64,000 nucleotides of DNA. Source: Intestinimonas massiliensis (ex Afouda et al. 2020). Lineage in GTDB: Bacteria; Bacillota; Clostridia; Oscillospirales; Oscillospiraceae. Every line of letters starts with the position of its first letter. Positions within the stretch are counted from its first letter, which is position 1. The stretch covers positions 131,454 through 195,453 of the forward strand of contig NZ_LN869529.1 of the NCBI RefSeq assembly GCF_001244995.1. The letters are read 5' to 3'. Shown here piece after piece: positions 1 through 3,754 of this stretch. A model generated the notes under the pieces. The model worked only from the letters and a program-made list of their open reading frames with translations. It did not search any database and was not told where the DNA came from. Position numbers and translations under genes: made by a program.

Positions 1-696
1 GGGCTTCACAGCCTCGCGGGTCCAGACGCCAGTGAAGGTCAGGCCGCCCTGGACCATCTCGATCTGGGTGTTGGGGGCAACATCGACGCCGTTTAGCTGC
101 CAGGTCTGGAACTTCCAGATGTAATCGCCAACCGTGACGTCCTCAGGCTTTGCCGCCGTCGTGACCTTCTGGCCGACGGAGTAGGTGTAGCTGTTGGTGG
201 GCAGGGTGGCCATGACCTCGGCGGGAACGCTGTTGTCATAGCTGTAGGTGACGCCGTACTCGCACTCCACGTCGATGGCGGGCAAGGAGGTTGCCAACGG
301 GGCATCCCAACGGGTGCCGTTCCAAGTCATATTAAAGGAGATCGAATCATCAACGGCGGAGTGCTTCTCGCCGACTTTCTCAGAATATGCATCCGCATAT
401 TTCGAGGTGGACACAGTGATGGGGCAGACATAGCTGTCGCCGCTCTGGGACACCGTGCCGATGGAAGCGGTATCCGCGATCTGATAGACGGACACCGCAG
501 TATGTCCGGCGCCCTCGGTGACGCACTGAACGGTATAGGCGGTGGGGAGATCGGTTGCGGCAGGCGCGTCGGGAGCCGTTTCACCGGGCTGGTCACCACC
601 TCTGATAGCGCCCGCAAATGCTGCGGTGGGGAAAAGTCCCAGCAACATCACGCAGCACAGCAGCGTACTCATCAGTTTAGTTATTCTCTTCTTCAT
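1..696 (-). CDS. Secreted surface protein with SHIRT-like domain, C-terminus outside window
   Basis: The leftward frame stays open from an ATG at 696 to the window edge (232 codons). An AGGAGG lies about 6 bases before the ATG and decides the start. Residues 1-28 form a classic signal peptide: MKKR, a hydrophobic core LLCCVMLLGLF, then an AFA cleavage site. A Pro/Ala-rich linker follows. Around residues 148-232 the pattern VTYSYD, an aromatic-rich middle and W..FQTW.LNG resembles the SHIRT domain of cell-wall adhesins. The protein is therefore probably exported and perhaps wall-anchored, but any LPXTG or further repeats lie outside the window. Upstream is a possible invertible promoter next to a serine recombinase. 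The domain name rests on motif memory only. Confidence 0.7.
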   Translation of the reverse strand, partial: MKKRITKLMSTLLCCVMLLGLFPTAAFAGAIRGGDQPGETAPDAPAATDLPTAYTVQCVTEGAGHTAVSVYQIADTASIGTVSQSGDSYVCPITVSTSKYADAYSEKVGEKHSAVDDSISFNMTWNGTRWDAPLATSLPAIDVECEYGVTYSYDNSVPAEVMATLPTNSYTYSVGQKVTTAAKPEDVTVGDYIWKFQTWQLNGVDVAPNTQIEMVQGGLTFTGVWTREAVKP

Positions 697-927: not shown

Positions 928-1069
928 GTGTACCTTTTGACACTTGCTCTTTTGGGGCGTAATTAGGAAAAGGTTGCAGACTCTGTCAAGAAAAATGACG
1001 GAAATGCTTGCTCTTGAGCTGGGGTTGTGCTATGATTTCTTATGTATAAGTGGCTATCAAAAGGTACAC
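928..1069. repeat. Inverted-repeat-bounded segment, candidate invertible promoter
   Basis: A 13-base sequence, GTGTACCTTTTGA, at 928-940 recurs as its exact reverse complement at 1057-1069, leaving 116 bases between. The segment lies between the surface protein leader and the 3' end of a serine recombinase gene. It contains a rightward promoter (1008-1036) and a leftward TTGACA (984-989) with a poor -10. The arrangement resembles Hin/fim-type phase switches, where the recombinase inverts a promoter between short inverted repeats. Inversion itself is inferred. Paired operator sites are the main alternative. Confidence 0.5.
1008..1036 (+). promoter_or_regulatory. Extended -10 promoter inside the inverted-repeat segment
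   Basis: TTGCTC, a 17-base spacer, then TATGAT preceded by TG (extended -10). As read here it points into the 3' end of the recombinase gene, so it drives no sense gene. If the segment flipped, the promoter would point toward the surface protein at 696. Confidence 0.45.
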
Positions 1070-1085: not shown

Positions 1086-2150
<1,065 letters not shown>

Positions 2151-2293: not shown

Positions 2294-3715
2294 TCAGAGG
2301 GTGTAGCAGACCTTTCCGGGGTTGAGGATCATCTTGGGATCGAAGACCTTCTTGATCTCCTCCATGAGGCGCATATTGACGGGCCCCACGGACTCGGCCA
2401 GGTACTCCACCTTGCCCATGCCGATGCCGTGCTCGCCGGAGATCTGGCCGCCCAGCTCGGTGGTCTTGGCGTAGAGCTTGCGCATGAACTGGTCCACCTG
2501 CTTGACGAAGGCGTCCATCTCCATGTCCACGGAGCAGGTGTAAACGTGCAGGTTGCCGTCGCCGGCGTGGCCGAACATCTTGACCTCAAAGTCGAACTCC
2601 TTGTCGATCTCCTTGATGTAGAGCACGAAGTCGGCGATCTTGGAGACGGGGACGACCACGTCGCACTCGTCCAGCAGCTTGGTCTGCTCCTCGATGCCCT
2701 CCAGGAAGGAGGAGCGGGCGGCCCAGGCGTCCTTCATCTTGGCGGGGGTGTCGGCCACCAGGACGTCCATGGCGCCGGCCTCGACCACCAGCTCGGCGGC
2801 CTGCTCCACCAGGGCGTCGATGGCGTCCTGGGTGTTGGCGTCGAAGGTCACCAGCAGATAGGCGCCCACGTCCTGCCCGCCGATGTTGCGGGGGAACACG
2901 GCCTTGCCCAGATACTCCTCGGAGGAGATGAGGATCTCTCGCTCAAAGAACTCCAGAGCCTGGGGGTCCATGTGGGCCTTCTTGAACAGGGGCACGGTGG
3001 AGATGCAGGTGGCCAGGTCCTCGAAGGGGCAGATGAGGCTGACGGTCTGCTTGGGGGCGGGGATGAGCTTGAGGGTCAGCTCGGTGATGATGCCGAGGGT
3101 GCCCTCGGAGCCGATGATGAGGTTGAGCAGGGAGTAGCCGGAGGAGGTCTTGGAGACGGTGGCGCCCATCTTGACGATCTCGCCGGTGGGCAGGACCACG
3201 GTCATGGCCCGGACATAGTCGCGGGTGGCGCCGTACTTGACGGCCCGCATGCCGCCGGCGTTGGTGGAGACGTTGCCGCCCAGCGTGGCAAACTTCTCGC
3301 CGGGATCGGGGGGATACAGCAGGCCCTGCTTCAGGGCGTCCTCAGCCAGGTCGTTGAGCAGCACGCCGGGCTGGACCCGGACGACAAAGTTGTCGGTATC
3401 ATATTCCAGGATCTGCTTCATGCGCATGGTGCACAGCACCACACCGCCGGCGATGGGGGTACAGGCACCCACCAGGCCGGTGCCGGCGCCGCGGCAGGTC
3501 ACGGGGATGTTGTTGTCATAGCAGACCTTCATGATGGCGGAGACCTCTTCGGTGCTCAGCACATCAATGGAGACGTCGGGCATCTTGGTGCCGTAGATGG
3601 GCATCTCGTCGCGGGAGTAGTCGGGGTTGACGTCCGCGCCCACGACGACGCGGTCGCCGGAGATCTTCTTCAGCTCTTCGATGATTTCAGGGGTGACTGG
3701 ATTGTAGGTTGCCAT
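2294..3715 (-). CDS. FAD-binding 2-hydroxyacid dehydrogenase (GlcD / D-lactate dehydrogenase type)
   Basis: A 473-residue flavoprotein that oxidises a 2-hydroxyacid, probably D-lactate, to the 2-oxoacid. The N-terminal PCMH FAD domain shows TCRGAGTGLVGA near residue 60 and GGNVSTNAGGMRAVKYG near 145. The C-terminal FAD-oxidase domain shows MFGHAGDGNLHVY and ends with SGEHGIGMGKVEYL and DPKMILNPGKV. The ATG at 3715 has AGGAGG 7 bases upstream, preferred over the in-frame ATG at 3742. It is the last gene of the leftward lactate operon after larA and lctP. No etfAB lies alongside, so the electron acceptor is not visible here. Confidence 0.9.
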   Translation of the reverse strand: MATYNPVTPEIIEELKKISGDRVVVGADVNPDYSRDEMPIYGTKMPDVSIDVLSTEEVSAIMKVCYDNNIPVTCRGAGTGLVGACTPIAGGVVLCTMRMKQILEYDTDNFVVRVQPGVLLNDLAEDALKQGLLYPPDPGEKFATLGGNVSTNAGGMRAVKYGATRDYVRAMTVVLPTGEIVKMGATVSKTSSGYSLLNLIIGSEGTLGIITELTLKLIPAPKQTVSLICPFEDLATCISTVPLFKKAHMDPQALEFFEREILISSEEYLGKAVFPRNIGGQDVGAYLLVTFDANTQDAIDALVEQAAELVVEAGAMDVLVADTPAKMKDAWAARSSFLEGIEEQTKLLDECDVVVPVSKIADFVLYIKEIDKEFDFEVKMFGHAGDGNLHVYTCSVDMEMDAFVKQVDQFMRKLYAKTTELGGQISGEHGIGMGKVEYLAESVGPVNMRLMEEIKKVFDPKMILNPGKVCYTL

Positions 3716-3754
3716 ATGGATTCCTCCTAACGTATTTTTCAACGGTCGGCGTCT

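Follow-up and report, generated by a model that had tools for sequence, protein, structure and literature searches.

A putative invertible promoter beside a small serine recombinase in Intestinimonas massiliensis, and similarly paired sites in related Clostridia

Genes and paired sites at the locus

The window, a 64,000-nucleotide stretch of the Intestinimonas massiliensis genome, opens with the 5' part of a leftward gene (positions 1 to 696, minus strand) that extends beyond the window and whose product has a signal-peptide-like N-terminus by eye. The first-pass annotation read this gene as a SHIRT-like surface protein starting at 696, and a SHIRT domain match (2.4e-8) bears this out. Further downstream on the same strand lies an open reading frame (L003:7065-8369) ending in repeats that by eye resemble S-layer homology domains; it probably belongs to the same gene, with a masked stretch between the two parts. 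On the other side of an intergenic region, positions 1086 to 1706 (minus strand) encode a small serine recombinase of 206 amino acids (Pfam Resolvase PF00239, 5.3e-30) with RVSS and DRLGR motifs, which we take to contain the catalytic serine and arginine residues. The size and enzyme class annotated earlier therefore stand, but the designation Hin-type says too much: among solved relatives Sin scores best (1.4e-29), and a DNA invertase scores 8.4e-18. The match to the NCBIfam Mpi family NF009949 reaches 39.8 bits, below its cut-off of 272. A 77-residue open reading frame (1703 to 1936, minus strand) overlaps the recombinase start and has no Pfam or NCBIfam match; relatives of it are present in 17 of 278 recombinase loci, directly upstream of the recombinase in 10 of these. 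A second homologue of the recombinase in the same genome (L194) is 59% identical and has no clear site pair downstream. Beyond the recombinase, at 2146 to 2189, a 20-bp inverted repeat with 95% complementary arms and a 4-base loop probably forms a bidirectional terminator that separates the recombinase side from the gene at 2294 to 3742, which by eye resembles an FAD-linked oxidase. No Rfam match was found at 600 to 2300, and no terminator-like site at 650 to 1150.

Between the surface-protein and recombinase genes, the sequence GTGTACCTTTTGA at 928 to 940 recurs as its exact inverse at 1057 to 1069, with a gap of 116 bases, just as had been annotated. A search of the whole 3.1-Mb genome finds two exact copies of this 13-mer, both at this locus, and thus no further copy of the kind expected if it were an isolated regulator site. 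The visible repeat is part of two longer sites of 26 bp. The putative left crossover site (918 to 943), also present in L035 (see below), is a dyad with 10 of 12 symmetric positions and a GT centre at 930-931, and holds the first 13-mer; the putative right site (1054 to 1079), with 9 of 12 symmetric positions and an AC centre at 1066-1067, is inverted relative to the left and holds the second. Small serine recombinases cut a palindromic site with a 2-bp overlap, and a dyad with a GT or AC centre has the layout of such a crossover site. Since the GT and AC overlaps are inverted, recombination would invert the segment between them rather than delete it. The proposed invertible segment runs from 932 to 1065, and the distance between centres is 136 bp, or 13 helical turns. 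The two sites score 15 and 16 of 18 against the family consensus described below and are weaker than most: 115 of 162 family sites score at least 17 of 18, and pairs in which neither site exceeds 16 make up only 14 of 81. At both sites the inner half agrees with the consensus and the outer half deviates, and a low rate of flipping, or a locked state, is a possible consequence of such weak sites.

Predicted promoters within the segment

The segment contains a predicted promoter with an extended -10 element, TTGCTC-17-TG.TATGAT, on the plus strand at 1008 to 1036 (-35 at 1008-1013, TG at 1028-1029, TATGAT at 1031-1036). As the first-pass annotation described, it is aimed at the 3' end of the recombinase gene, an orientation that is OFF for the surface-protein gene. 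Its -35 hexamer, with three of six consensus bases, lies 49 bp from the far 20-bp site core, counted start to start, which is the position seen across the family; a generic promoter scan omitted this promoter from its list. Inverted recombination sites thus flank a promoter predicted by sequence, the arrangement that defines an inverton.

The closest relative of this locus, L035 in Pseudoflavonifractor sp. Marseille-P3106, has a homologous surface-protein gene after its switch, promoter hexamers identical to those of the window, and 152 of 162 bases conserved in the site-to-site region. The annotation had also noted a leftward TTGACA with a weak -10 and cautioned that the difference between the orientations may be incomplete. 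The hexamer itself is not conserved (TCGGCA in L035), but the caution holds, as another weak leftward match is conserved: TTGATA-17-AATCAT at 1060 to 1032, with 9 of 12 consensus bases (0.5 such matches expected in shuffles), is common to the window and L035. Its -35 forms part of the crossover site and, as the segment now lies, it would read towards the surface gene, so that the OFF state may leak.

By promoter call both the window and L035 are OFF, and in these two loci OFF is the only orientation seen. The L035 recombinase is 98% identical to that of the window, with 22 synonymous and 4 non-synonymous codon differences (dN 0.010, dS 0.175, dN/dS of about 0.05), values that indicate purifying selection. 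These comparisons bear on whether the locus is a former inverton now locked OFF in this lineage, with decayed outer half-sites and a recombinase that no longer inverts the segment. The departure of both outer half-sites from the consensus would fit such a decay, as would the shared orientation of the sole relative found with the locus; the selection on the recombinase, the intact inner half-sites and the conservation of the site-to-site region nevertheless make it unlikely.

Paired sites beside related recombinases

Of 394 genomes sampled from the order, 110 have a relative of the recombinase (E of 1e-40 or better). The loci we compared are the best-scoring relatives (many of them from lists limited to the best 80 in named records or the best 30 per genome search) rather than a random sample: a first set of 190 loci, 166 of them examined after 16 short or N-containing loci and 8 duplicates were dropped, and an enlarged set of 278, from which the loss of 22 short or N-containing loci and 10 duplicates left 246. 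All thresholds were set by the analyst, and randomised sequences were sampled from first-order Markov statistics. In the first set, 81 of 166 loci have an inverted pair of sites resembling TCAAAARGT-nn-ACYTTTTGA near the 3' end of the recombinase gene, as compared with 0 of 155 upstream regions, 0 of 152 far downstream regions and 0 of 498 randomised sequences. A detector that uses no consensus finds 103 pairs in the 246 downstream regions of the enlarged set at a score reached in none of 246 randomised regions (one copy of each), and the earlier judgement that the inverted repeat exceeds chance is thereby supported. Counting only pairs with complementary centres, the union of both detectors gives 115 of 246 related loci, a count that leaves out two loci whose centres are not complementary (L157 and L260); neither detector finds a complementary pair in the remaining 131 of the 246. 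By recombinase identity, pairs are found in 18 of 26 loci of at least 75%, 49 of 69 at 70-75%, 30 of 59 at 65-70%, 15 of 71 at 60-65%, and 3 of 21 below 60%. Comparison of these loci bears out the sites themselves, their dyad form and their pairing as features of the family. Viral contigs contain nine relatives of the recombinase, of which one (L283) has a pair at threshold and two have too little downstream sequence; the sites and spacing of L283 are those of L010.

Central dinucleotides and helical spacing

With the centre left unscored, 80 of 81 pairs from the first detector and 102 of 103 (70 of 70 and 32 of 33) from the consensus-free one have centres that are reverse complements of each other. 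The agreement extends to the centres AG/CT, CT/AG, AA/TT, TT/AA and AT/AT, and the exceptions are L157 and L260, the latter with AC/AC. Because both detectors seek inverted pairs, we ran a control detector that rewards direct pairing; its 88 pairs comprise 82 with inverted centres, 5 with palindromic centres and 1 with direct centres. Such agreement of the centres within a locus is the mark of two sites that recombine together as inverted partners. The palindromic centre AT/AT occurs in L142, L059, L121, L132 and L134, and in principle permits deletion as well as inversion.

The distances between centres, which lie between 115 and 170 bp in 103 of 115 loci, cluster at 115, 125, 136-137, 146-147, 157 and 168 bp. 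For 67 non-redundant segments the resultant at a period of 10.5 bp is 0.69 (Rayleigh p of about 2e-14) and the best period is 10.57; with the main spacing cluster removed, p is about 1.6e-8 (n = 37). Non-redundancy was defined by shared 10-mers and not by a tree (fewer than four for the 67 segments, which included L157, and fewer than three for the consensus-free set). The other detector gives p of about 1e-9 for 44 non-redundant segments of the first set, and a second sample of 15 segments, with no 10-mers in common among themselves or with the first, gives about 2e-5. Likewise, where nearest-neighbour recombinases have spacings that differ by at least 5 bp, the difference falls within 2 bp of a multiple of 10.5 in 42 of 59 cases, and the mean deviation from such a multiple is 1.6, compared with 2.6 expected. 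The simplest reading is that the paired sites would have to face the same side of a tight DNA loop. Helical phasing of the Fis enhancer has been reported for Hin (PMC3798978), and in our literature search we met no natural inverton whose crossover sites had been described as whole turns apart.

The spacing, together with the recurrence of the pair in the same place after the recombinase in 115 of 246 loci, also leaves scarcely any room for the view that the 142-bp unit has nothing to do with the recombinase and is a MITE-like insertion bounded by terminal inverted repeats; it does have the short length and inverted ends of such an element, but it is present in a single copy in the genome.

Promoter position and orientation across the family

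Comparison across the family establishes both the sequence and the fixed place of the promoter: 78 of 114 segments contain one of the TTG...-17-TG.TATAAT-like form with its -35 at 46-50 bp from the far site, whereas five other offset windows give 2, 13, 2, 3 and 0 promoters in the same 114 segments. A second, smaller group of 13 segments has its promoter at an offset of 56-60, which puts it roughly a helical turn more distant from that site. A whole-segment promoter scan had left many loci uncalled, and the promoter position was then fixed. With the fixed position, the first set gives 61 OFF, 9 ON and 11 uncalled of 81 loci; the enlarged set, for which other cut-offs were used, gives 74 OFF (aimed at the recombinase), 7 ON (aimed at the next gene) and 34 uncalled of 115. 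This excess of OFF calls could stem from growth before sequencing, from majority calling during assembly, or from damping of the recombinase by antisense transcription.

The annotation had proposed that related genomes be compared for a flipped form of this locus, and we found none. Among 11 genomes of the genus only the window's own matches, and it is not flipped. Ten of 400 genomes of the family match, but only the window's own and one other (G692) do so over the whole 241 bases, and these two are co-linear; G692 is probably the same genome as L035, and all three are in one orientation. A search of viral contigs with one junction pattern for the flipped junction of this locus likewise gave no match.

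Opposite orientations are seen in one pair of more distant relatives, L038 from an uncultured Neglecta and L051 from an uncultured Lachnospiraceae. Their recombinases are 93.6% identical, and the segments match at 78% identity with one on the opposite strand to the other. The outer half-sites and immediate flanks are unflipped; because these remain co-oriented, the exchange points lie within the site cores. The promoter calls are OFF for L038 and ON for L051. This is the one opposite pair among 12 homologous segment pairs of at least 60 bp, the other 11 being co-oriented. A shorter match of 29 bases on opposite strands links L076 and L112, which are called ON and OFF.

The L038 and L051 pair argues against an alternative that involves no inversion, in which the recombinase is a Sin- or Tn3-type resolvase and the dyads serve as subsites of a single res site or as autoregulatory operators. 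Sin and Tn3 are the best-scoring solved sequence relatives of the window recombinase, and res sites contain several dimer-binding sites (PMC9943657). The resolvases described there use accessory sites, whereas here there are two full sites with inverted centres; direct orientation of the crossover sites is seen neither in the window, where GT and AC are inverted, nor in nearly all pairs of the family. L038 and L051, moreover, differ by exchange at both sites, and the promoter keeps a fixed place between the dyads. Accessory sites are not known to need matching, inverted centres, and such centres are found family-wide at both sites. We consider a resolvase very improbable.

A model for inversion

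The best explanation of the window locus, and one in which we have considerable confidence, is an invertible promoter switch operated by the adjacent serine recombinase, as the first-pass annotation had suggested. It draws support from the family-wide paired dyads, their reverse-complementary centres, the helical phasing, the fixed place of the promoter and the opposite orientations of L038 and L051; flipping at the window locus itself we infer from these sequence comparisons. In the proposed mechanism the recombinase, presumably the enzyme that acts here, would bind the dyads at 918-943 and 1054-1079 and pair them by closing a short loop of 136 bp, after which cutting at the central GT/AC, rotation and rejoining would invert the DNA between the sites. 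In the present state the sole good promoter, if active, would read rightward and antisense to the end of the recombinase gene, leaving the surface gene OFF or low; in the inverted state, which a locus still able to flip should also adopt, it would read leftward through a leader of about 250 nucleotides into the SHIRT gene at 696, turning on a gene that it presumably controls.

Comparison with known systems

Several elements of this switch have precedents. Promoter inversion by a serine recombinase is already known from Mpi of Bacteroides fragilis, described as a serine DNA invertase of capsule promoters and as a master enzyme that inverts 13 regions (PMC4747536), and short invertons are already known in Clostridia (PMC5903667). 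The window recombinase resembles Mpi, as described there, in being a serine recombinase associated with a promoter segment in a gut bacterium and with variation of surface structures, but it lies beside one segment rather than acting on 13. Nor does the genome offer the many target sites of an Mpi-like enzyme, as a genome scan allowing up to three mismatches to the 20-bp family site finds, beyond the local pair, one other sequence, distant and with three mismatches, at two places.

The small serine recombinase and its dyad crossover sites also recall Hin and Gin, whose crossover sites are dyads some 26 bp long around a 2-bp centre. A Fis-bound enhancer controls Hin (PMC3798978), and the hin gene lies inside its invertible segment (PMC5903667), whereas the window recombinase lies outside and the spacing in its family is mostly 115-170 bp. 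Within Clostridia, the RecV switches of C. difficile are reported as short invertons of tyrosine recombinases (PMC5903667), and inverton group 139, given as the main Clostridia group in a defined gut community, is linked to tyrosine recombinases as well (PMC11892184). The present family is like both in its short invertible regulatory segments, but differs in lying beside a serine recombinase and in its 26-bp dyads.

Genes behind the putative switches

The longest nearby open reading frame, by mechanical calls, shares the strand of the recombinase in 74 of 81 loci, lies on the opposite strand in 3 and is missing in 4. A rule that favours the recombinase strand gives 94 of 109 on the same strand, 5 opposite and 10 with none, a further 6 loci being too short. 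A domain scan of 93 downstream proteins and that of the window matched 102 families, and among the 25 of these that are listed the counts are BspA leucine-rich repeats 7, AMP-binding 5, Cas12f1-like/TnpB 5, S-layer homology 4, List-Bact repeats 4, SPFH 3, VWA 3, flagellin 2, Eco57I methylase 2 and TIR 2. Individual loci carry, among others, a flagellar rod protein, a C39 exporter, a radical-SAM enzyme and a kinase that bears leucine-rich repeats. By a crude pattern, 43 of the 93 downstream proteins have an N-terminus of signal-like or membrane type.

With downstream genes so diverse, recombinase and segment together have the look of a portable unit. We tentatively propose, with slightly less than even confidence, that there is a widespread Clostridia family of self-contained switches, each with one small serine recombinase and one promoter segment, mostly of 105-180 bp, placed before very diverse genes. 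Such switches would use no remote enhancer and would close a tight loop that tolerates only whole helical turns, and in the OFF state the promoter would damp the recombinase by antisense transcription, biasing the population towards OFF. Our literature search, which did not extend to supplements, found no description of a Clostridia serine-recombinase switch family, and members may stand in published tables. If the proposal is correct, Clostridia, often ones living in animal guts, possess a modular device for phase variation that can be recognised in assembled sequence alone by its site motif, and the device would point to the surface proteins, flagellins, methylases, exporters and enzymes that undergo switching. 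Its quantised loop length would also be a natural experiment on the pairing of two recombinase dimers on short DNA.

Three groups of downstream genes may be noted separately. TnpB/OrfB-like proteins (Cas12f1-like TNB) are encoded by the first gene after the switch in four to five of 94 loci, including, by eye, L116:1518-2705. Methylase genes directly follow the switch at the two Eco57I loci and at L036:4791-5540, an MmeI methylase just under the cut-off, and their position suggests phase-variable restriction-modification. Finally, AMP-binding (adenylation) enzymes follow the switch in five of 94 loci, including L046 and L149, an unusual target for phase variation in that these are not surface proteins.
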